This document shows, one piece after another, positions 1-12,527 of a DNA stretch of 38,348 nt. Each line of letters begins with the position of its first letter. Within the stretch, counting starts at the first letter, position 1. This DNA comes from Bacteroidota bacterium. GTDB lineage: Bacteria; Bacteroidota; Bacteroidia; Bacteroidales; UBA5342. A program made the position numbers and the translations under genes. The stretch is from the NCBI GenBank assembly GCA_003249935.1, contig QKHT01000229.1:1-38348 (forward strand). The letters are read 5' to 3'. The notes under the pieces were generated by a model, which was given only the letters and a program-made list of their open reading frames with translations, had not been told where the DNA came from and did no database searches.

Positions 1-637
1 CACTGCCCGTCATGCGGGGCATCATCAAGTCGCTTAGTACAATATCGGGTTGTATTTCAATGGTTTTTTCGAGTCCTTCAACGCCATCCACAGCGGTCTG
101 GACTTTGTATATAGACTCAAAAATGTTTTTTAGCATTTCGAGTAATTCCGGATTGTCTTCCACTATAAGTATCGTAAATTCGGGTTCGCTATCGGTTACC
201 TGCGTGCTTATAATTTCTTGCATAAACTCTTCCATGCCATTCAGTTGAGCCTTTATTTCTGTGGTTTCGTAGTTGGCTTCCACAATCTGATCTTTTGCAA
301 AGTGGGCTGAACCTTTTTTGAGGGTTATGGTGAATTTACTGCCTACTTGTGCGGTGCTTTCGACAAATATTTGGGCCAAATGGGATTCAATAATGTTTTT
401 TGTAAGGGCCAGTCCTATTCCGGTTCCCGGAAACTGATGGTTTATTTGTAAGCCATTCTCTGCCTGGTAAAAACGGTCGAATACCTTTTCAATCGCTTCT
501 TCGCCAATACCTATGCCGCTGTCGTATACCTCAATGGTGGCCGAATCGATATTTTGAGACACCACCAGACTTACATGGCCGTTTTTCGGAGTGTACTTAA
601 AGGCATTGGAAATAAGGTTATATACTACCTTTTGCAA
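1..637 (-). pseudogene. C-terminal part of disrupted HTCS: histidine-kinase ATPase and receiver domain (runs off left end)
   Basis: This continues the sensor gene at 618-3431 in a different frame. Read on the minus strand from about 637, it gives the N box (YNLISNAF, about 600-630), the G1 box (DSGIGIG, about 500-520) and the G2 box (GTGIGLAL) of a GHKL ATPase. A linker and the start of a CheY-like receiver follow. The receiver's phospho-acceptor Asp lies in SDLMMPRMTG, codon at 29-31. In the HTCS family an AraC-type DNA-binding domain comes next; it would lie left of base 1 and is not visible. The piece has no plausible start of its own, so it cannot be an independent gene. Domain identity is clear. 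Whether the break is biological or an assembly error is not. Confidence 0.8.
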
Positions 638-3431
638 TGGGTATCGCTTCGTCGGTACATTCAAAATTGAAGTTGATTTGTCTGAAATTGGCATATTCAG
701 AAAATGAAATGTAGATTTCGTAGAGAAATTTCACCAAGTCATGTTCACTCACTTTGAGCGTCAGGTGACCTTGTTCGCTTTTTCGAAATTCTAGTAGTTC
801 GTTAATGAGGTTTTGCATATTGGCCGTATTCCTTTTTATGCTCAGTATGCGGTTGTATATGGCTGGCTGAACCTTATGCATTTGCAACAACATATCCACT
901 TGGCCGGCAATGAGTGTCAATGGGGTGCGGAATTCGTGAGATATATTGGTAAAAAACCGGAGTTTCGATTGGTTTACCTCTTCAATATGTTCTATTTGTT
1001 TCTTTTCGTATTCGAGCGAGGTTTTAAGCAATACTTTCGAATGGTTAAATATCAGGTAACGCCATATCATTAGCAGAACCAAAAGCACATAAGCGATATA
1101 GGCATACCAGGTTTTGTAATATGGTGGTTTAACCACAATTTTGAGGTTGGTGCTTGCCACAACCAATCCATCTACCGGCGAAACGGCTTCTACCATAAGC
1201 ATATAGTTGCCAGCGCTAAGGTTCATGAAGTTAAGTTTGTTTATGGCTTGTGGTATGGTAGTCCACTGGTTCGAAAAACCTTCGACCTTGTAACGAAAAA
1301 TGGGCCTGTTGGCCGGAATATAATTGTTCGAAGCCACCTCAATGGTAATCATGGTTTGGGTATAATCGAGCGTTATTTCGCGCGTAAAGGGGAGCGATTG
1401 TTTCAAAATGCCGCTTTTGTCGCCCGGTTTTACCGGCATGTTATTTATTGACAGGTTAATGAGATTTACAGTATACGGACGATGTGGCACGGTAAGGTTT
1501 TCTTCAAAAAACGAAACCATACCATTCATGCCGGCAATGTATATTTCGCCCGATCGGGTTACGCATATACCACCGTTGTATAACGAGTTAAGTGGCAAAC
1601 CATTCTCGATACCATAGTTAAATGTTTTGTTGTTTTCGGCATCGAGTATCGAAAATCCGTGAGTTGTGGTGACAATAAGGTAGCCGTACTGCGATTCGCG
1701 GATGTTACTGATAAAATCGTTTTTTAAACCCGAATGCTTGCTGTCATATCGCACAAAATTATGGCCTGCCTCATTAAACCGGTTCACCCCGCCACCACTT
1801 GTGGCCACCCACATTGTATGGTGTTTATCTATGAGTAGTTTAATGATGCCGTTATTCGCGATCGAGGTGCTGTCGTTATTTTCCGGTTGGTAGGTTTTGG
1901 ATGCTCCGGTGGTTATATTGTACCACATCAGGCCGTTGCCGGCTATCCATAACCTGTTTTTATCATCCAGTTTCATGTCTACACAGTAGCGCACCAACTC
2001 TTTACCTTTTATGCGTAATGGCTCAAAAACACCGGTCTCCGGTTCAAAACTAAAAATGCCGTTGTAGGTACCAATAAGTAGTTTGTTGTGGTATGGTATT
2101 ATGGCGCGTACCACATCCGACTGCTCCCATTCGGGTTTTACTTTGCTGTAGCGTGTTATTGTAGCGGTTTTTGTGTCGAATTTGCATAGCCCGCCCAAGT
2201 GCATGCCGAGCCACAAGGTGTGGTTGGCCCTGTCGTAGTAGCTGGTTTTTATATTGTTGGTCGATAAACTGTTGGTATTGCTTGTTTCTGTGCGGTAGTT
2301 TTTGTAGATTTTGGTTTTGGGATTGTAATATATCAGTCCATCGCCTTCGGTACATAGGTAGAGGTTATTGTTTTCATCTTCAATAATATCACTGATAATG
2401 GGGTAAGGTTTGTTTTGTAATGAACCATTGGTAAAGTTGTGGAAGGTATAAAAATCTATTTCAGGGTTAAAATAGTTTACGCCACCAAAATAAGTACCCA
2501 CCCATATGGTGCCTTGTTTGTCTTTGGTTAGTGCCCAAACCGATTCATTCGACAATTGCCGGTCATTGCTCTCGTCCGCACTATAGTGTTTTACGATACC
2601 ACTTTCAATGCTTAGTTTGTCGAGTCCGTTTTTTGTACCCACCCAAATGTTGCCATTGTTGTCTTCGGCTATGGCGCGTACAAAATCTGCCGAAATTTTG
2701 TAGCGGCTTAGTGGGTTTGTGGCGGTATAATTTTCGGTTGAACCGTCGTTGTTGAGTTTGTACAACCCGTTTTGCCAGGTGCCTATCCAAATATTTTTTT
2801 TGCTGTCTTCGAATATCGACGATACCGGACTGCAGTCGCCAAGTGCGGTGCGGCTTTTTTTATTTTGGTCTATTACAATTACACCCGACGATATTGTGCC
2901 AATAAATAGCCGTTCGTCGCTACTTTGGAAAATGCATTTAGTGGCCGAAGTGCCCGTTGGGAATGCTAAGTATGATTTTTTTTTGCCGTTGCAATAGCTG
3001 TACAACGTGTTTCTTTCTGCTATCCACAAACAGTTTTTGCCGTAGGCAATGGCATCGGTAACGGTGTTGCGGTCTATAATTTGCATTTGGCCCGTATAGA
3101 GGTTGTACTCGTTTATGGAGCCGGGTGTTTGTATAAAGACTTGCCCTGCTTGATTACCGCATATGTTTTTTATATTGCTGCCTCCCAGGCTATTGGTGTC
3201 CGATTGAACCGGGTTAAATACTTCAATGGAACTGCCATTGTACCGGTTTACGCCCTCGCGCGTGCCAAACCACATGGTGCCCAATTCATCCTGATAAATA
3301 CTCATTACCGTGAGTTGCGAAAGGCCATGTTCGATACCTATTTTAGAAAAATAGATGTCGTCCGATGCGGCAATTCTAAGGGAAATAATGACTATTAAAA
3401 ATAACGATGCTGCTTTTCTTAAACTCACCAT
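618..3431 (-). CDS. Hybrid two-component system sensor (periplasmic propeller, Y_Y_Y, HisKA), truncated by frame break
   Basis: The 937-residue product starts with a signal peptide (about residues 1-23). It then carries a long series of two-component-regulator propeller repeats (recurring NIWVGT / TIWVGT / LWLGM strands, about 30-680), a Y_Y_Y domain (about 690-770), one membrane helix (about 776-796) and a HisKA domain with the H box FFTNISHEFRTPLT (phospho-accepting His832). HTCS proteins bind oligosaccharides in the periplasm and activate the adjacent polysaccharide-utilisation genes. The frame stops at 618 just before the ATPase N box, which continues in another frame (1-637). The D-x-x-K/Q stretch that normally precedes the N box is missing, so more than one base may be lost. 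The gene sits 105 bp downstream of the GH43 gene, and a -7-like box in that gap suggests its own promoter. Confidence 0.88.
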   Translation of the reverse strand: MVSLRKAASLFLIVIISLRIAASDDIYFSKIGIEHGLSQLTVMSIYQDELGTMWFGTREGVNRYNGSSIEVFNPVQSDTNSLGGSNIKNICGNQAGQVFIQTPGSINEYNLYTGQMQIIDRNTVTDAIAYGKNCLWIAERNTLYSYCNGKKKSYLAFPTGTSATKCIFQSSDERLFIGTISSGVIVIDQNKKSRTALGDCSPVSSIFEDSKKNIWIGTWQNGLYKLNNDGSTENYTATNPLSRYKISADFVRAIAEDNNGNIWVGTKNGLDKLSIESGIVKHYSADESNDRQLSNESVWALTKDKQGTIWVGTYFGGVNYFNPEIDFYTFHNFTNGSLQNKPYPIISDIIEDENNNLYLCTEGDGLIYYNPKTKIYKNYRTETSNTNSLSTNNIKTSYYDRANHTLWLGMHLGGLCKFDTKTATITRYSKVKPEWEQSDVVRAIIPYHNKLLIGTYNGIFSFEPETGVFEPLRIKGKELVRYCVDMKLDDKNRLWIAGNGLMWYNITTGASKTYQPENNDSTSIANNGIIKLLIDKHHTMWVATSGGGVNRFNEAGHNFVRYDSKHSGLKNDFISNIRESQYGYLIVTTTHGFSILDAENNKTFNYGIENGLPLNSLYNGGICVTRSGEIYIAGMNGMVSFFEENLTVPHRPYTVNLINLSINNMPVKPGDKSGILKQSLPFTREITLDYTQTMITIEVASNNYIPANRPIFRYKVEGFSNQWTTIPQAINKLNFMNLSAGNYMLMVEAVSPVDGLVVASTNLKIVVKPPYYKTWYAYIAYVLLVLLMIWRYLIFNHSKVLLKTSLEYEKKQIEHIEEVNQSKLRFFTNISHEFRTPLTLIAGQVDMLLQMHKVQPAIYNRILSIKRNTANMQNLINELLEFRKSEQGHLTLKVSEHDLVKFLYEIYISFSEYANFRQINFNFECTDEAIPIAKGSI

Positions 3432-3536: not shown

Positions 3537-4507
3537 CTATTTTACGCGCTTTACCCCCTCGGTCGTCATGCGTACGCGTTTCATAGTGCCATTAAGGTTG
3601 TAATACAGTTGGTCTACACATACCGACCGCCTGTAGCTGCCGCCGGTTTTTATTACCCCGCCATTGTGATAAAAAAAGTACCATTTGCCTTTGTATTTTA
3701 CTATTCCCTGATGGTTTGTACCCGAATTGCCCGATAGTTCGTTTAGGATTCCTTTGTACTCCCAAGGGCCATTGACGTTTTTACTCATCGAGTAACCAAT
3801 CCGTTCGGGAAACCCAATGGCATACGACAGGTAAAAGTTATGGCCTTTTTTGTGAATCCAAGGTGCTTCTCTAAAATCGGGAAGATTCTCTACCGCCATT
3901 ATCGGTCCAATGGTGTCTGTCATATTCTCTTTCAGTTTAATATAGTAACATTGGCGGTTGCCCCAAAACATATAAGCCTGATTGTCGTCGTCGATAATTA
4001 CAGTCGGGTCTATATCATCCCAGTTGTGTCGTTGGTTATTATGGCCGAACCGCGGGCGTCGCGAAACGGGCCCAATGGATTGTCGGCCACGGCCACGCCT
4101 ACTGATTTACCTTTTATAGTGCCATGTTCAACAGAAATATACCAGTAAAATTTGCCATTACGTTCAATAACCTGCGAAGCCCATGCTTCGCCTTTGGCCC
4201 ATGCAAAATCGCTGGCTTTCAATGGGGTGGGGTGTTCGGTCCACTGTTTCATGTCGGTGGTGCTAAATACGCACCAATTGTTCATTACATATCTGTTTTC
4301 GCCAACAGGACATTCGTCGTGGCCGGTATAAACATACAATGTGTTGTTGTACACCATGGGAGCCGGGTCGGCGGTATATTTATGTGTAATAATGGGGTTT
4401 CCGTCCGAATTAAATGTGGTGTCTTTGGTATTTATTTGTGCCTTTATTTGGGCTGAACCAAGCAGTGCAAGTGCCAAAGATAGGATGATGTTTTTGTAGT
4501 ATATCAT
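3537..4507 (-). pseudogene. Secreted glycoside hydrolase family 43 protein, single-base frameshift
   Basis: GH43 enzymes are five-bladed beta-propeller hydrolases, often arabinosidases, xylosidases or galactosidases. Residues 1-24 form a signal peptide ending near IKAQ. All three catalytic acids are recognisable: the general base Asp in YTADPAPMV, the pKa-modulating Asp in WDDIDPTV and the general acid Glu in REAPWIHK. The first frame (start 4507) runs to a stop at 4010. From about 4019 the protein continues in another frame (WDDIDPTV onward) to the stop at 3537. The total of 971 bases is one short of 324 codons, so a single missing base around 4016-4021 restores a full-length, all-motif protein. 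The rest of the gene looks intact, so a sequencing error or a very recent mutation is likely. It lies 26 bp after the beta-helix gene and is probably co-transcribed with it. Confidence 0.82.
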
Positions 4508-4533: not shown

Positions 4534-6081
4534 TTATTCTGCCTTTAAATCTTTTATCCATTGAGGCAGTTTACCCAATCGCAGTTGCAACTGTGCTTCG
4601 TAAAGCGATTCGGGCCGGGTTTTGCCGCCAATGGCTTCGGCATATTTTAGTTGTTTTGGGTCGAAACTCATATTTGGTCCCGAAAAGCCGGCAATTACCG
4701 GCATTAGCATTTTAAAGTAGGGCTTTGTCGAATCCCAGAACTCCATGTTTTTGTATTCGGTGTCGTTGGTTTTGGTGTAGTTCCATAGCACCAGATTTTG
4801 GAGGTGGTTGGGCAGACATTTAATGGCACCGCCATCGCGGGTGTTCAGAAAACCGCCCACCATACAGTCGACAAGTGTGTTGCGCGGTTGCGATGCGTGC
4901 GATTCGAAACAGTTTGTCGGTGGGTTTTTGCATCGCCATACTACCGTGTTTATGCTCAGTTTGGCACAACCAAAGGCATGCCATTGCGAGGCTTCATCTG
5001 TGCATTTGGCAATAAGTACCCGGCTCGAGCCGTACGACGATATAGCGGCATGGCCACCATTTCCTATAATCTTGCAGGCTACAACCGTATAGTTGGCACA
5101 ACCCGAAATTCCTGCTGCATTATTCACGTCTTCGAATATGCAATTTTTCATCCAGCTGTTGGCTTGTCCCTGCACCGACAGTATGCTCCATCCACCATCG
5201 TGTATGGCCGATAAATGGTGCACAAACGGTTCTTTGAAATTGCCTTTAAAGTGCAAATTTTCTACGCCGCATTGTGTATTTGGTTCCCAACGGGTTAAAT
5301 TCCAGTTGTCTTTTGCTGTAATGGTGTACATTATGGGGTCGGCCAGTGTGATGGTGGTTTTCGATACCGATTTTACCTTGTGGTAGGTTTTTACTTCAAC
5401 GCCACGCTCGTTAATATCGGTCCATGTGGCCGAAACCTGGTATGGGTACACCTCTTGCGCCACACGGGCGGGGTTGTTGTTTTGCAGGTTTATTTGCACC
5501 CAACTATCAGGCGTTATGTTTTTTGTACTGCTTACTTTTATTTCAAAACTACCGATACGGGCATCGGCAAGTATCGTTACGGTGTCGGTATTGGCTTTTT
5601 TTGCCGAAAATTGGATGATGTCGGGTGTAGACCAAAGCTTGGCCGGATCGGTGGCCGTCATGTGTTCGCGCATAAACAGTACCGCGCCGGTTTCGCCTCG
5701 TAGTACAATATGGTTGCCTGTAATTTTTATCGCGGTTTCCGATTCGCCCGGTTCATTTACTAAATAGAGCCCTTTAGGGAAATAGACAATGCCCGATTTG
5801 TTGGCCTGAGCCGCATTGATGCAGGCTTGTATTGCTGCTTTGTCCGAGAGATTGTCGTTGGGAATTGCACCATAATCGGTGACTTTAAACACTTTGTAAT
5901 TTACATTGGGTATCGCTTTTTCGCCATACTCGTAACCCACGTACGAAAAGTCGGGCACAATGGTCGCTTCTCCTGCGGCCTTCTGTTTTTTGTAGGTTTC
6001 GTAAACCGTAGTTTGTGCGGCGACACACATAAAGGTACTTATGCCTATCGTAGAGAGTAAAATTTTATTCGAAAGTTTCAT
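4534..6081 (-). CDS. Secreted right-handed beta-helix protein, pectate-lyase-like, possibly with C-terminal DUF4955
   Basis: The 515-residue protein has a signal peptide (about 1-22). A pectate-lyase-3-type opening follows: VTDYGAIPNDN, then AAIQACINAA and GIVYFPKGLYLV, about residues 67-107. After it come irregular beta-helix repeats (ENLHFKGNF, NCIFEDVNNAAGI, CKIIGNGGHAAI). The last ~50 residues (FDPKQLKYAEAIGGKTRPESL to the end) resemble the tail domain seen on many Bacteroidota beta-helix proteins (DUF4955); that assignment is from memory and tentative. The fold suggests a polysaccharide lyase or hydrolase acting outside the cytoplasm. Substrate and reaction cannot be read from the sequence. 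It is the first gene of a probable minus-strand unit with GH43 and HTCS. Confidence 0.72.
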   Translation of the reverse strand: MKLSNKILLSTIGISTFMCVAAQTTVYETYKKQKAAGEATIVPDFSYVGYEYGEKAIPNVNYKVFKVTDYGAIPNDNLSDKAAIQACINAAQANKSGIVYFPKGLYLVNEPGESETAIKITGNHIVLRGETGAVLFMREHMTATDPAKLWSTPDIIQFSAKKANTDTVTILADARIGSFEIKVSSTKNITPDSWVQINLQNNNPARVAQEVYPYQVSATWTDINERGVEVKTYHKVKSVSKTTITLADPIMYTITAKDNWNLTRWEPNTQCGVENLHFKGNFKEPFVHHLSAIHDGGWSILSVQGQANSWMKNCIFEDVNNAAGISGCANYTVVACKIIGNGGHAAISSYGSSRVLIAKCTDEASQWHAFGCAKLSINTVVWRCKNPPTNCFESHASQPRNTLVDCMVGGFLNTRDGGAIKCLPNHLQNLVLWNYTKTNDTEYKNMEFWDSTKPYFKMLMPVIAGFSGPNMSFDPKQLKYAEAIGGKTRPESLYEAQLQLRLGKLPQWIKDLKAE

Positions 6082-6383: not shown

Positions 6384-7913
6384 ATGTTTTATCATAAAGG
6401 TATTTGTCTCGGCACTGTTTTATTGGGAACCATGGCTGCCGGCCTCCAAGCAAAGGGTAAGGCGGTTCAACCCAACGTCATTTTTATATTTCCCGATCAG
6501 TATCGCAATTTTAGCCTTGGTTTTTGGTCTGAACCGGGTAACGAAAAGTACATTCAGGGGGCGCCCGATCCGGTGGTGACACCCACTTTAAACAAATTGG
6601 CCAAAAACGGCCTGGTATTTAGTCGCGCGGTAAGTAACTATCCGTTGTGCAGCCCTTATCGCGGCATGTTGCTTACGGGCATGTATCCCGATCATAACGG
6701 CATTGTCGAAAACTGCAAAATCGGTCGGGAGGCTCAGCTTAAAACCGATGCCGAATGCATTACCGATGTGTATGCCAAAGCTGGTTACGAGGTGGCCTAT
6801 TTTGGTAAATGCCACTGGCAAAAAACCGAACCATTGTTCAATAAAGAGGGCACCTATATCGGTTCGGCCCAATCGCCGGGTGGCGAATACATTAATACTT
6901 ACGATACTTATGTGCCGCCGGGCAAAGACCGGCATAGCATTCACTATTTTTATCAGGCGTTAACGGACAATCATTACAATCCGTTATGCTATACCGGCGA
7001 TCCATTGGTAAACAATAATTTGCCGGATGGGCATCTTTATCAGCCCAAAAAATTCTCGGCCGAAAACGAAGCGGATATTATTGTGAAGTATCTTAAAAAC
7101 AGCCACAACCAGCGCGATACCAAAAAACCATTCTTTATGATTTGGTCGCTTAATCCGCCACACAACCCATGGACCGAAGAGAGTACCAATATGACCTTCT
7201 TTAAAAAATATTATGCCAATACCACTTTTTCGGGTCGTTTTCTGAACCGCGAGAATGCCGATACAACGGTTGGTGCTTATGCACCGTACTATTTTGCCAA
7301 TGTGAGTGCCGTGGATTTTTATATCGGCCAGGTGCTCGACCAGATTAAAAAGATGGGGTTGGATAAAAATACCATTGTGGTATTTAGTTCCGATCATGGC
7401 GAAATGTTGGGCAGTCACGCTTTAACGGGTAAAAATACGCCCGAAACCGAAGCACTCAATATTCCGTTTGTCATTAAATGGCCCGGTAAAATAAAGCCCC
7501 GCATCGAAGATCTGATGATTAGTGTACCCGATATGATGCCCACGATTCTGGGCCTTTCGGGCTTGCAACAAATGATTCCGGCCGAAGTGCAGGGCACCGA
7601 CTATTCTTCCATTATTCTCAATCCCGATTCGGCTTTGGTTCCAAAACCCAAATCGGCTTTGTACTATAATACCGGCACACGGGGCGTATTTACCGGTCAA
7701 TACACTTTTGTGGTGGCCGAGAAAAATGGCCGGGTTTCCAATGTATTTTATTACGACAACGTGGCCGATCCATACCAGGAACATAAAATATCGGGAGATA
7801 AAATGGATAAAAATATTACGGCAATGCTTAAAAAGGCGTTACGCGAATTACTTAAAAGTACCAACGACAGTTGGTATACGCAAGGCATTTGTAAGGATTT
7901 TTTGATGAATTAG
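6384..7913 (+). CDS. Secreted formylglycine-dependent sulfatase (S1 family)
   Basis: This 509-residue arylsulfatase-superfamily enzyme should remove sulfate esters from a carbohydrate in the periplasm. Residues 1-24 form a signal peptide. The metal-binding start is NVIFIFPDQYR (31-41). The sulfatase signature CSPYRGMLLTG begins at Cys89, the residue converted to formylglycine by anaerobic or aerobic maturases (C-x-P-x-R type). The second metal site is FSSDHGEMLGSH, followed by the KWPGK region typical of the family. Length and domain order are normal and the frame is intact. A strong terminator follows at 7945. Its place between a pectate-lyase-like gene and a putative sulfated-galactan hydrolase suggests a sulfated glycan substrate. 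The sulfatase subfamily cannot be fixed by eye. Confidence 0.93.
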   Translation: MFYHKGICLGTVLLGTMAAGLQAKGKAVQPNVIFIFPDQYRNFSLGFWSEPGNEKYIQGAPDPVVTPTLNKLAKNGLVFSRAVSNYPLCSPYRGMLLTGMYPDHNGIVENCKIGREAQLKTDAECITDVYAKAGYEVAYFGKCHWQKTEPLFNKEGTYIGSAQSPGGEYINTYDTYVPPGKDRHSIHYFYQALTDNHYNPLCYTGDPLVNNNLPDGHLYQPKKFSAENEADIIVKYLKNSHNQRDTKKPFFMIWSLNPPHNPWTEESTNMTFFKKYYANTTFSGRFLNRENADTTVGAYAPYYFANVSAVDFYIGQVLDQIKKMGLDKNTIVVFSSDHGEMLGSHALTGKNTPETEALNIPFVIKWPGKIKPRIEDLMISVPDMMPTILGLSGLQQMIPAEVQGTDYSSIILNPDSALVPKPKSALYYNTGTRGVFTGQYTFVVAEKNGRVSNVFYYDNVADPYQEHKISGDKMDKNITAMLKKALRELLKSTNDSWYTQGICKDFLMN

Positions 7914-7944
7914 TGCAACTTTAGTTGTAGTTCGAGTTTTTTTG

Positions 7945-7977
7945 TCCGGTTGTAGTGTTCTGCAACCGGATTTTTTT
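7945..7977 (+). terminator. Rho-independent terminator of the sulfatase gene
   Basis: A perfect 8-bp stem (TCCGGTTG / CAACCGGA) with a 10-base loop is followed directly by seven T residues, 31 bases after the stop codon. Confidence 0.85.
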
Positions 7978-8300
7978 GTTTTTACGGGGTATTTATGGCG
8001 CAGTAACGTGGCTTTTTAGCTGGTGTGGCGGTAGTTTTGCCTGTTTTGGCTGAACCGCTCTCGTTCCGTTTGTTCATTTGCGCTGTGTGCCGGTGTTTTT
8101 GTATTGGAACTGTATATCGAATTAAAAACGCATGGAGACATTAATTGTACGTTTAACGTCATATCCCGAAAAATATTTCTACAAATTGCACCTTGGTAAT
8201 AACCCCGGTTATTCTTTGCAATATCAAAATTTTGTATCTCTTTTTTATTAATGATGATAGATATTGTGGTTTTTAAATTGGCTAATTATTGAATTTCAAA
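7978..8300. other. Gene-free stretch before the propeller-hydrolase gene
   Basis: After the sulfatase terminator there is no recognisable gene or RNA. The stretch holds one GGCTGAACC copy (8048-8056), an inverted repeat (8198-8213, listed separately) and an AT-rich last 80 bases where a promoter for the next gene should lie. No consensus TAnnTTTG box was found, which fits an activator-dependent promoter. Confidence 0.45.
8198..8213. promoter_or_regulatory. Inverted repeat AATAACC-cc-GGTTATT, possible operator
   Basis: Perfect 7-bp arms separated by two bases lie 88 bases upstream of the ATG at 8301. No T-tract follows, so it is not a terminator. A binding site for a dimeric regulator is the simplest reading, but there is no direct support. 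Confidence 0.3.
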
Positions 8301-11240
8301 ATGTTGAATAAAAACTTAATGTATTGCTGCTCGTTGTTCCTTGGTTATGCTATGCTCTCAAATGCACAGGTAAAAACAAGTATTACAGCGGGATTCGAAA
8401 AAAATGGTGCCGCCTGGGAAACCGCTGCACCCGATTATCTTAGTGTTGTGGATTCAAAGTCCGCCGAGGGTGTTAATAGTCTGGAATATCGCGTCGATAC
8501 GCCATATAAGCCTTCGGCCATTGTGAGTATCGATACGCGACTAACCATTATGAAGGTGCGGTCGGCAGTGGCCAAATCCGGAAATGTAATTGTTGGTAGC
8601 AGCTACGAAGGTATTGTACTGGGTGTTGGATACGATGGCGTAACGCTATGGAAAACCGATATTGGCCATGGCCTGATGAACCACGACATGTGGTGTGCCG
8701 ATATTACCGGCGATGGTGTGGACGAAATTATGGTGGCATGCGCCGACGGAAAGGTCTATTGCTTAAATGACAATGGTAAGGTAATGTGGCAGTTTCAGCC
8801 TAATAATGGCGGACAACTGCCTCCGATGTATGCAGTGTGTGTGGTGCATGGTGCCGACAAAACGCCTTACGTGGTGTGCGGTGGTTTCGATATGAGTATC
8901 TACTACCTTTCGGCTACCGGTCAGTTGGTTAAGGAACTTAAATCGTCGGTGTATTCTACCGTAAAACCCTGGGGCGATGCGGCCGATACGCCTCCGTCAT
9001 TTTTACATAATGCTAATTTTCTTCGGCCAATGGTTCAACCCAATGGCACCGAAGTTTTGGTGATGCATGCCAGCAATAACCACATGCAATCTACGGGTAC
9101 CATCTATTTGTTTACACCACTTTCGAATACGCCTTATCGAACCATAGAAAAGATACCGGCAGCGGGATCAATTGGCGACATGCGCATTGAATACCGTAAA
9201 AGCGATGGTAAAGCTGAAATTTTACTTGGGGCCAACGGGCTATCGGAAATGAGCATGACAAGGGTGAACCCCGAAACCGGCGTAATGGAAGAGTTTAGTC
9301 TCACCTCGGGCATCGGAAGTCCCGCTTATCGTGTTAATCAGGTGGTTACCATCCCAAGTGGCGATAGTACGCTATATTTCAACATGTTCGGACTGAATGT
9401 CATTCTCGTGGGTTCATCACTGAGCACCGCTACCGACGAAATTATTGCTGGTAACTACTCATACAACGATATGTGGAAAGATGGTTCAGGCCGAATTATT
9501 CTGGCCAGCAGCGAAAGTGGCGGAAGTTGTATTCATCTCATTGATATAAAAAACACGGCTTGGAAGAGTGCCATTAAAAGTGTAAACCCTCCCGGAAAAA
9601 TACAGTCGATTCTCGATAACTTTACCGCCTGCCGGTCGTCACTGTCCGGTTTTGTGAAACCGGCGTGGGAGCGCGACCCCGATACGGTTTATATCATGTC
9701 GGCCGATCTTAATAATGCTTTAACCAAATCGCTTATAGGCAATTATGCTTCGCCGGTGTTTTTGGGCGGCTCTAACGAAGACCGCGAATTGTACGATGTG
9801 GTGCACAGTGCTATTCCCGATCCGATTTACAGTGTTAAAAGAGATGTCAGGCAAACTTATAGTCTTACTTCCAACCAGGCGGTGAGCGCGATTTTATCGA
9901 ACTATGCCAATGTGCCCGGTATTGGTTACTGGATTGGCCATGGCAACGACCCCTATTATTATAGCAAAACCACCACTCAAAAGGTCATTGATGGGGCAAA
10001 TGGCAAAAAAACGGTAATGATTATTCCGGAAATGCACGATACTTATGGCAGTGGTAAATTTGTTGTAAACGACCTTCTGCTCCCCTTGTGCGAATATGGT
10101 GCTACTCGCAATGCAAATCTTATTTTGCAAAACAAAGATATTTTCTGGCAATGCGATGTGTATACCCCCGACTGGAAAGAGGGTATCTCGGGTAAATATG
10201 CAAAGGCACTGTTGCCAAGTATGGAAGAGACCACCGACAAAACACAGGATTTGAGTCTGATGGGGCGTATGGGTTTATGGGCTAGTGGTGCCACCGATAA
10301 CTGGGCCTCGCGTTGCTCGCGCGACAATCCGAGTTTCGACCGTAGCCGGCAGTTCTCTAACCAGTCGCTGCCTAACCATTTTCTTCGGGCTACGGTCTAC
10401 AATCTGGCGTGTGGTTCGCGGTATGTCAATAATACGTATGTGGATCTGAACCACATGGGCCTGGCACTGGAGTTAATGGCCAAAGGGGCCTTGTATGTGC
10501 CACGTCGCAACGAAATTGTGAGCTTTTCGCCGGTTCATCTGAGTATGAAAAACCCCGATGCCCGTTATATTAAAGAAGGTACCAATGGTAAATGGACCAC
10601 GTTCTACGACCGTAACTACGAAGAAAATAATTCGTATGTGTTTAGCCGTATGAATGGTACATGGCTTGGTGCACCGGTAAATTATTGGGATTTTTCGCGC
10701 TATGCCTCGGGAGTTATCGATCGCCGGCAAAATTTTCTGCCGCCATATCCCAATGGCATGGTATTAATTACACCGCCACAAGCCGGTGTGTTTGCCGATG
10801 CTACTGCGGTTCGCGGCAGCATGAGCGATTTGCTGCATCCGTTGTACAAAAACATTTTGAAAGAGTTTATTACCGATGGCCATAACTATTACTCGGCCAA
10901 TGGTTTGCAAACGTACAAAGCGAACGAGTATTATACGACCGTTGAAGCAGCCATAAAAGAGGGTGCTCAAAAGCTGCCTCTTACCGTTTCCGGTAGTAAT
11001 GTAGCTTGGGTTGTAGCTCAGACTTCGCCCATGCATCTGCGACTGACGTTGGTCGATGGCGGATATATTAACCCCGACAATCGCATGGCTAAAATCACGT
11101 TCCATTCGGTTCAACCTAAAAAAATGACCGATGTACTCGATAAAAAAGTATTCAATATTACCAATCCATCGGCGGTAATGGTCGATATACCTTGTGGTTT
11201 GTTCCGCTTTATCGATATCGAACTTAGCAAGCCACTTTAG
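8301..11240 (+). CDS. Large secreted beta-propeller plus putative glycoside hydrolase; lambda-carrageenase-like (GH150) candidate
   Basis: The ATG at 8301 was preferred over the in-frame TTG at 8289, giving 979 residues. A signal peptide ends near LSNAQ. The N-terminal part holds a jelly-roll-like strand set (FEKNGAAWETAAPDY, SAEGVNSLEYRV). A propeller with FG-GAP/PQQ-like blades follows (CADITGDGVDEIMVACADGKVYCLNDNG). The C-terminal half looks like a TIM-barrel-type catalytic region: GYWIGHGNDPYYYS, MIIPEMHDTYG, then DWKEGISGKYAKALLPSMEE. The acidic residues in IIPEMHD and SMEE are possible catalytic residues. The size and the propeller-plus-catalytic layout recall lambda-carrageenase of Pseudoalteromonas carrageenovora (GH150, about 105 kDa), and the sulfatase upstream fits. 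This is recognition by architecture, not alignment. No T9SS tail is visible; the protein ends FIDIELSKPL. Confidence 0.6.
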   Translation: MLNKNLMYCCSLFLGYAMLSNAQVKTSITAGFEKNGAAWETAAPDYLSVVDSKSAEGVNSLEYRVDTPYKPSAIVSIDTRLTIMKVRSAVAKSGNVIVGSSYEGIVLGVGYDGVTLWKTDIGHGLMNHDMWCADITGDGVDEIMVACADGKVYCLNDNGKVMWQFQPNNGGQLPPMYAVCVVHGADKTPYVVCGGFDMSIYYLSATGQLVKELKSSVYSTVKPWGDAADTPPSFLHNANFLRPMVQPNGTEVLVMHASNNHMQSTGTIYLFTPLSNTPYRTIEKIPAAGSIGDMRIEYRKSDGKAEILLGANGLSEMSMTRVNPETGVMEEFSLTSGIGSPAYRVNQVVTIPSGDSTLYFNMFGLNVILVGSSLSTATDEIIAGNYSYNDMWKDGSGRIILASSESGGSCIHLIDIKNTAWKSAIKSVNPPGKIQSILDNFTACRSSLSGFVKPAWERDPDTVYIMSADLNNALTKSLIGNYASPVFLGGSNEDRELYDVVHSAIPDPIYSVKRDVRQTYSLTSNQAVSAILSNYANVPGIGYWIGHGNDPYYYSKTTTQKVIDGANGKKTVMIIPEMHDTYGSGKFVVNDLLLPLCEYGATRNANLILQNKDIFWQCDVYTPDWKEGISGKYAKALLPSMEETTDKTQDLSLMGRMGLWASGATDNWASRCSRDNPSFDRSRQFSNQSLPNHFLRATVYNLACGSRYVNNTYVDLNHMGLALELMAKGALYVPRRNEIVSFSPVHLSMKNPDARYIKEGTNGKWTTFYDRNYEENNSYVFSRMNGTWLGAPVNYWDFSRYASGVIDRRQNFLPPYPNGMVLITPPQAGVFADATAVRGSMSDLLHPLYKNILKEFITDGHNYYSANGLQTYKANEYYTTVEAAIKEGAQKLPLTVSGSNVAWVVAQTSPMHLRLTLVDGGYINPDNRMAKITFHSVQPKKMTDVLDKKVFNITNPSAVMVDIPCGLFRFIDIELSKPL

Positions 11241-11283: not shown

Positions 11284-12432
11284 ATGACATACAAAATATT
11301 TTTAATTGGCCTGTTAACGCTGCAAATGTGGACAGGTATTGCCGGAAAGAAAGCGAATACGGTTTTAGTAAATGTCCTCGATCCGCAGTATTACGGCATG
11401 GAAAATGGCGGCACCGGCTGGTATTTTTATAATCAAACCTTCTGGTCTGTGACATCCGAAAAAGCCGGAAGTGGTACGTACTGTTTAAAGTACACCAATG
11501 CTGCAACGGCCGCAGCGACCTATAAAGCTTTAATTGGTAGTGCATCCAATTTGGGTTCACTTATTAATATTAAAGCGGGTACCTACACCATGAAAATTAA
11601 GGTGTATATTGATCCTGCAGCCGAAATAACTGGTGTGGCCACGGTTTTTCGACCTGCATTTCAGAATGTAAGCTGGAGTTTTGCATCGGTAGCCAAAGGC
11701 GAATGGGTCGAACTTAGTCAGCAAGTGACCTTTGCAGCCGACCTTGTCGATGGCAGTATGCTGGTGCAAATGGCCACGACTTATGGCGGCAAGGGCACAT
11801 TATACGTCGACGATATAACTATTATGGATGCAGGCACGGTGGCAAGGGCACCGCTTCCCTTGGTTTCCGAAATAAAAACCGTAGATACGGCGCGTATTAG
11901 TTTGTCGGCCGATACCTACGATATTAGCCTTAAGGTGTTTGTGGCTTCGGGTTCAACCATAAATAGTTTTTATACTGCTTTGGCTGAACCGTGTACGGTG
12001 GTTAAGTGGGATTTGTCGCAGGTGGCACGCGATGCTTGGGTTACACTCACTGCAAAATTCCAACTGGATATTGCGGCCGACTCATCGGTTTTTATGATTC
12101 AGATTCCTAATAACCCCGAATTTGGCGGTGGTACGGGCCTGTTGTATGTCGATGATGTCCATATTCAAAATGCGGTAGTCGATAGGGTGGTTGCTGTAAA
12201 TTCCGCACCGAGGGTATTGATTTACCCGAATCCGGCATCGGGGTTTTGTACCATCGAAACCGATGTACCTTGCCATATTCAAATTATTTCGCCTGCGGGT
12301 GCCGTGTGTAAATCGGAAAATTCAACCGGCGGAAAATTTTTGGTCTCGGTAAAGGATTTGGCCCACGGCATCTATATGGTGAAATTGAATTCGGCCGGCC
12401 TCTCTACGATTTCGAAACTGCAAATTAAATAA
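11284..12432 (+). CDS. Secreted two-jelly-roll (carbohydrate-binding-like) protein with T9SS type A sorting domain
   Basis: The 382-residue protein starts with a signal peptide (about 1-21). Two related beta-sandwich units follow. The first (about 28-183) ends GTLYVDDITIMDAG; the second (about 195-293), shorter at its start, ends GLLYVDDVHIQN. These closing strands are typical of CBM4/9-like modules. The last ~75 residues (VLIYPNPASGFCTIET, then HGIYMVKLNSAG) form a classic type A Por/T9SS sorting domain, so the protein should be exported through the outer membrane and anchored or released at the surface. No catalytic domain is evident. It lies 43 bp after the propeller-hydrolase gene with no terminator between, so the two are probably one operon, with this protein as a possible surface glycan-capturing partner. 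Confidence 0.75.
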   Translation: MTYKIFLIGLLTLQMWTGIAGKKANTVLVNVLDPQYYGMENGGTGWYFYNQTFWSVTSEKAGSGTYCLKYTNAATAAATYKALIGSASNLGSLINIKAGTYTMKIKVYIDPAAEITGVATVFRPAFQNVSWSFASVAKGEWVELSQQVTFAADLVDGSMLVQMATTYGGKGTLYVDDITIMDAGTVARAPLPLVSEIKTVDTARISLSADTYDISLKVFVASGSTINSFYTALAEPCTVVKWDLSQVARDAWVTLTAKFQLDIAADSSVFMIQIPNNPEFGGGTGLLYVDDVHIQNAVVDRVVAVNSAPRVLIYPNPASGFCTIETDVPCHIQIISPAGAVCKSENSTGGKFLVSVKDLAHGIYMVKLNSAGLSTISKLQIK

Positions 12433-12495: not shown

Positions 12496-12527
12496 AAGCC
12501 ACCATTTTACGATTAAAATGGTGGCTT
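12496..12527. terminator. Bidirectional terminator between convergent genes
   Basis: A perfect 14-bp stem (AAGCCACCATTTTA and its complement) with a CGAT loop is flanked by T-rich DNA on both strands. It lies between the stops of the T9SS protein (12432) and the dehydrogenase (12551), so it can serve both. Confidence 0.85.

Follow-up and report, generated by a model that had tools for sequence, protein, structure and literature searches.

The window, meaning the whole stretch of DNA that was analysed, is one entire contig (C170) of 38,348 bases from a genome (G000) of 4.27 Mb in 326 contigs. An intact open reading frame on its plus strand (8289-11240) has its first ATG at 8301 and encodes a protein of 979 aa. 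The gene and its parts, together with the hairpin that separates it from a sulfatase gene upstream, are as follows.

7944-7971, plus strand: terminator-like hairpin between the sulfatase and GH150 genes, 12 pairs, then the T run TTTTTTGTTT
8301-11240, plus strand: predicted GH150 lambda-carrageenase, 979 aa (Pfam CGLA_M, Beta-prop_CGLA, CGLA_C; 48% identity to OUC-CglA)
8301-8366, plus strand: signal peptide, SPI type, residues 1-22 (read by eye)
8382-8522, plus strand: N-terminal extension (about residues 28-74) corresponding to the first third of a CBM-type jelly roll (hhalign to partner domain d1)
8586-9542, plus strand: beta-propeller domain, residues 96-414 (PF25292, 387 bits, E 7.8e-116)
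9816-10904, plus strand: middle domain, residues 506-868 (PF25290, 567 bits, E 1.9e-170; AF2 secondary structure)
10029-10031, plus strand: codon of invariant Glu577 (IIPEMHD), which follows barrel strand 570-576 at its C-terminal end (alignment, AF2 model)
10224-10226, plus strand: codon of invariant Glu642 (PSMEE, first E), which ends barrel strand 637-642 (alignment, AF2 model)
10983-11222, plus strand: C-terminal beta domain, residues 895-974 (PF25291, 119 bits, E 1e-34)

The original prediction took this protein to resemble GH150 lambda-carrageenase or, failing that, to belong to an undescribed hydrolase family, and proposed an HMM search and a structural comparison as checks. The Pfam lambda-carrageenase models match the propeller, middle and C-terminal domains in order, all far over the cut-off, and the protein is close to the characterised OUC-CglA. 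The GH150 proposal was thus correct and an undescribed family is ruled out; judged by these domains, the product of 8301-11240 adds a new member to an established family, the lambda-carrageenases. The predicted signal peptide and propeller blades were both recovered. The peptide, MLNKNLMYCCSLFLGYAMLSNA/Q, would be cleaved before Gln 23 and carries no lipobox (both by eye). A jelly-roll-like start had also been described; the domain type was recognised rightly, but only about its first third is present. GH150 genes occur in 2 of 99 genomes of wider relatives and in 2 of 395 across a sample of the phylum (the present genome counted in each), and in 14 of 397 genomes of one family of the same class.

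The AF2 model of the enzyme (pTM 0.88, mean pLDDT 86) shows the propeller and then, over residues 506-868, strands and helices that alternate in the manner of a (beta/alpha)8 barrel. In the structural comparison the model matched WD40-type propellers (Z about 27); the VIA-align result was dominated by these matches and carries little information on the barrel. The TIM-barrel-like motifs IIPEMHD and SMEE named in the original prediction are present, and they hold two of the six acids (D515, D550, E577, E642, D675, D797) that are invariant across an alignment of 36 GH150 proteins, whose identity to the window enzyme falls as low as 24%. From this conservation and the position of both residues at barrel-strand ends in the model, E577 and E642 are the most likely candidates for the acid/base pair. 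The middle domain would then be the catalytic domain, with the propeller and the (beta/alpha)8-like barrel together forming the substrate cleft. Catalytic residues of GH150 have not been assigned and crystallisation was unsuccessful (PMC12549532); the alignment supplies two testable glutamates for the family. A PDB sequence search found no GH150 in the copy searched. The top non-propeller Foldseek matches to the whole model were GH98 chains (E 2.5e-11 to 8e-9), with low TM-scores. These come without a sequence-profile relation, as hhalign of the 36 GH150s against one GH98 gave E 0.39 over 18 columns, so that GH98 was rejected as a sequence relative and the resemblance is kept only as a lead on the fold of the barrel and C-terminal domain.

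To place the enzyme among characterised ones, a 934-aa protein of Maribacter vaceletii found in a scan of genome contigs was compared; over 915 residues it shares 48% identity with the window enzyme. The docking model of OUC-CglA lists eight arginines (PMC11202985), and all eight fall on Arg in the 934-aa protein at a single offset of 118, while an 883-aa paralogue from M. vaceletii matches three at best. By this numbering the 934-aa protein is OUC-CglA, and a characterised lambda-carrageenase is therefore a close relative of the window enzyme. The predicted enzyme would be secreted and endo-acting on beta-1,4 links, with lambda-carrageenan, the substrate of the family, as its probable substrate. 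Cleavage of another sulfated galactan by a GH150-like enzyme is improbable. Identity to OUC-CglA is just 48%, four of the eight docking arginines are retained (R517, R671, R674, R681), and GH150B of Pseudoalteromonas distincta, 26% identical to CglA, yields different products; yet GH150B, the more distant enzyme, is active only on lambda-carrageenan, and the family is described as exclusively lambda-carrageenan active (PMC12549532).

Further GH150-type proteins were seen. A second branch (L010:5233-7884, L016, L043-L047, L052), 24-26% identical to the window enzyme, occurs in several of the same genomes as the main type and directly adjoins it in Maribacter. A very distant GH150-like protein (L038, G723:C6), encoded by a 1087-aa open frame with 38 bits to CGLA_M and a T9SS-like tail, may represent an undescribed sister family of GH150.

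The gene upstream (6384-7913) encodes a sulfatase of the formylglycine type, with the CxPxR maturation motif as CSPYR at residue 89. The original prediction paired it with the enzyme. The sulfatase is indeed there, but the pairing did not hold, and a single lambda-carrageenan unit of the two genes is very improbable. The genes are neighbours on the same strand, in a genome that has 104 sulfatase family matches and a carrageenan-type locus elsewhere. The 387-base gap between them, however, contains the terminator-like hairpin at 7944-7971, and the window sulfatase was the best match of no GH150-adjacent sulfatase in the 13 other loci typed. Its nearest solved structures are an endo-4-O-sulfatase (6s21, 360 bits) and a chondroitin/dermatan 4-O-endosulfatase (6j66, 252 bits), whereas lambda-carrageenan carries 2-O and 6-O sulfates and its pathway sulfatases are S1_8/S1_15 (PMC12549532). 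Inclusion of the sulfatase in a lambda-carrageenan unit is thus not supported. Beside it, on the minus strand (4534-6081), lies a gene for a DUF4955/beta-helix protein with a weak likeness to the BT3328 lyase family, confined to the C-terminal half of that family; given its place next to the sulfatase, it may relate to another sulfated glycan.

Elsewhere in the window, a GH43 gene (3537-4507, minus strand) is split into two open reading frames in different frames, a frameshift that may reflect either gene decay or a fault in the assembly. A hybrid two-component sensor (1-3431, minus strand) breaks at about 620, with the kinase ATPase and receiver in another frame to the contig end. With 104 sulfatase matches in 4.27 Mb, the genome is that of a strong sulfated-glycan specialist. 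A second GH150, which carries a T9SS tail, is encoded on contig C18 (L017, L018), where the locus also contains sulfatases, GH2, GH16 and an aldose epimerase. A sugar-acid catabolic set there, made up of a mandelate racemase-type protein, an aldehyde dehydrogenase, a KDPG-type aldolase, a PfkB kinase and a RhaT-like transporter, looks like one for 3,6-anhydrogalactose.

Downstream of the enzyme, after 43 bases, lies the gene for a second protein, referred to here as the partner, and a terminator-like hairpin follows the pair.

11284-12432, plus strand: partner, 382 aa, with signal peptide, domains d1 and d2 and a T9SS type A tail (Pfam/TIGR, neighbourhoods, AF2)
11359-11832, plus strand: d1, residues 26-183, complete CBM-fold jelly roll (AF2 and VIA-align, Z 12-13)
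11848-12174, plus strand: d2, residues 189-297, d1-type domain minus its first third (hhalign, d1-HMM)
12220-12426, plus strand: T9SS type A sorting domain, residues 313-381 (PF18962, 41.6 bits; TIGR04183, 35.4 bits)
12496-12527, plus strand: terminator-like hairpin 3′ of the partner, 14 pairs

Both tail models score over their cut-offs and the genome has a gene for the translocon protein SprA, which marks the partner as T9SS cargo. The fold of d1 matches CBM16, CBM4, CBM61 (which binds beta-1,4-galactan) and a module that binds porphyran (VIA-align Z 12-13); d1 may bind polymer. Against PF02018 (CBM_4_9) the partner scored 24.1 bits, below the cut-off of 25.9, with the best stretch in d2 and covering profile positions 64-133 of 136. 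By hhalign d2 aligns to d1 positions 64-158 (E 2.3e-29), and its match to the d1 HMM begins at position 66.

The part of the domain that is absent from d2 is found in the enzyme. The extension, about 45 residues long, aligns to d1 positions 10-53 (hhalign, E 2.9e-12) and gave no hhalign match to d2; the extension and d2 thus span one domain jointly, with no overlap. In the window enzyme it reads FE..W...SV...K...G..SLEY, and with 12 other GH150 proteins it shares the pattern FE....W.......WS....K...G..SLKY. Among the 317 open reading frames of the loci, partial matches to the d1 HMM came only from partner d2 domains and GH150 extensions; in all remaining modules of the type the match begins no later than HMM position 34. 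The partner in L076 (G252) consists only of a signal peptide, d2 and the T9SS tail; it has no d1 and therefore no other copy of the first third. These alignments show that the extension and d2 correspond in sequence to complementary parts of one domain, split over two proteins.

Structure prediction bears on how the two parts would meet. When the enzyme was folded alone, residues 20-65 had pLDDT below 50, so that the extension reads as disordered by itself, though the low value may reflect the shallow alignment (13 rows). When the partner was folded alone, d1 formed 12 strands and d2 nine, with pLDDT 82-93 over most of d2. In alignments of fused enzyme and partner, the aligner placed the extension onto d1, and these alignments were discarded for that reason. 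From the single-chain models and the hhalign results together we infer that the extension would insert its strands into d2. The confident prediction of d2 by itself indicates that d2 may fold without the extension; once completed, it could also bind polymer.

The association of the two parts was examined in the neighbourhoods of 35 GH150 genes, 13 extended and 22 non-extended, read from fetched stretches. A d2 partner is the immediate same-strand neighbour of 12 of the 13 extended genes (three upstream, nine downstream) and of none of the 22 others (Fisher p 1.6e-8, with related loci treated as independent). The surface-exported protein that had been predicted directly downstream is therefore a true, conserved and T9SS-tailed partner. 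Genome-wide, a d2 scoring above 125 bits was found in all 10 genomes with an extended GH150 (126-165 bits) and in none of the 8 without, where the score was 72 bits or lower (p 2.3e-5 over the 18 GH150 genomes, relatedness ignored); the next match in any of the 18 reached 91 bits. The numbers of extended enzymes and partners agree in each genome, except G492 with two enzymes and one partner. On the tree the extension label has to change five times, and well-supported branches force at least three of these changes.

These distributions also bear on a simpler explanation, in which an ordinary GH150 stands beside an independent surface protein that binds polymer, d2 is a shortened but self-sufficient domain, and the extension is the decayed remnant of an N-terminal CBM. 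It would account for the confident model of d2 alone, CBM-fold modules are frequent in these genomes, and most GH150s have no extension. A decayed remnant, however, would not be expected to remain conserved among 13 proteins through three or more changes of label, nor should it always end at the same place and always match the exact piece absent from its neighbour. Near-perfect co-occurrence across genomes and its persistence with the L076 partner, reduced to d2 and tail, also argue against this explanation, which we regard as somewhat unlikely.

Completion of d2 by the enzyme suggests how the enzyme may reach the cell surface. The window GH150 has no Por_Secre_tail match, and its GH150 core extends to the C terminus; by its own sequence it does not qualify as T9SS cargo. 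The same holds more widely, as a T9SS tail is found in 0 of the 13 extended enzymes. Two GH150s that lack the extension but are grouped with extended ones in the tree, L012 (G000:C18) and L074:5358, have their own T9SS tail, and the closest tree row of the latter is an extended GH150. This pattern is expected if partner and extension together replace a covalent tail. The second of these genes (L074:5358-9065, minus strand, Saccharicrinis) encodes a tandem non-extended GH150, whose 306-residue tail is a region unmatched in Pfam followed by the T9SS sorting domain. Most non-extended GH150s have neither partner nor T9SS tail; GH150s can thus function without the partner arrangement, and the tail-less ones must either leave by a different route or be located in the periplasm. 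It could follow that the extension completes d2 for holding at the surface only, the enzyme leaving the periplasm by separate export, in vesicles or on lysis. The existence of these tail-less, non-extended enzymes speaks for such a route, but the lack of a tail in 13 of 13 extended enzymes and its presence in two grouped non-extended relatives fit a role in export too, and restriction to surface holding is considered unlikely.

The reading preferred here combines the GH150 assignment, the E577/E642 pair and an extension that completes d2 of the partner, with co-export and surface holding as the outcome; as a whole it is given a probability of about 0.6. In this scheme the enzyme would reach the periplasm via Sec, where the extension would insert its strands into the incomplete d2. 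The T9SS tail of the partner would then carry the pair over the outer membrane and anchor it at the surface; on type A cargo the tail is exchanged for a link to LPS (PMC8545088, PMC9143113). The enzyme would finally sit at the surface in a two-protein complex beside d1. Co-export with the partner is the step that we infer from the tail pattern. The wider proposal is that a tail-less, polysaccharide-cleaving enzyme gains both export and anchoring when it contributes the first jelly-roll strands to the incomplete CBM-type domain of a T9SS-tailed carrier, that this is used across Bacteroidota, and that it is interchangeable in evolution with a covalent tail; we put its chances only slightly above even.

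Searches of the open-access literature gave no relevant paper that links GH150 to GH98, that describes a carbohydrate-binding module in strand complementation, or that treats tail-less T9SS riders. As far as these searches reach, a domain split over two genes in this way has not been described. If true, the proposal would explain the arrival of a tail-less enzyme at the surface in Bacteroidota and would amount to non-covalent swapping of cargo on a T9SS carrier. Searches for T9SS cargo that rely on the tail alone would overlook such riders, and the arrangement would offer a natural two-piece surface tag of about 45 residues plus a half-domain.

Several known systems can be set beside this one. 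OUC-CglA shares with the window enzyme the order of propeller, middle and C-terminal domains, the equivalents of E577 and E642, and the arginines R517/R671/R674/R681, but has neither the N-terminal extension nor an adjoining partner of the window type. GH150A and GH150B of P. distincta U2A are likewise endo-lambda-carrageenases with three-domain models and a conserved cleft patch as the proposed active site (PMC12549532); they are gammaproteobacterial, and the likeness is one of description. Within the same genome, the second GH150 (G000:C18, L012) is 48% identical and groups with the extended enzymes, yet it is without extension or partner, carries its own T9SS tail and lies in the carrageenan-type locus. 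The closest likeness to the proposed completion of d2 is found in Mfa4 of Bacteroidales fimbriae, where one protein supplies the strand that completes a beta domain in a second (PMC4789730). That system serves fimbrial polymerisation with unrelated domains, whereas in the present proposal an enzyme would be joined to its carrier through two or three jelly-roll strands of CBM type.
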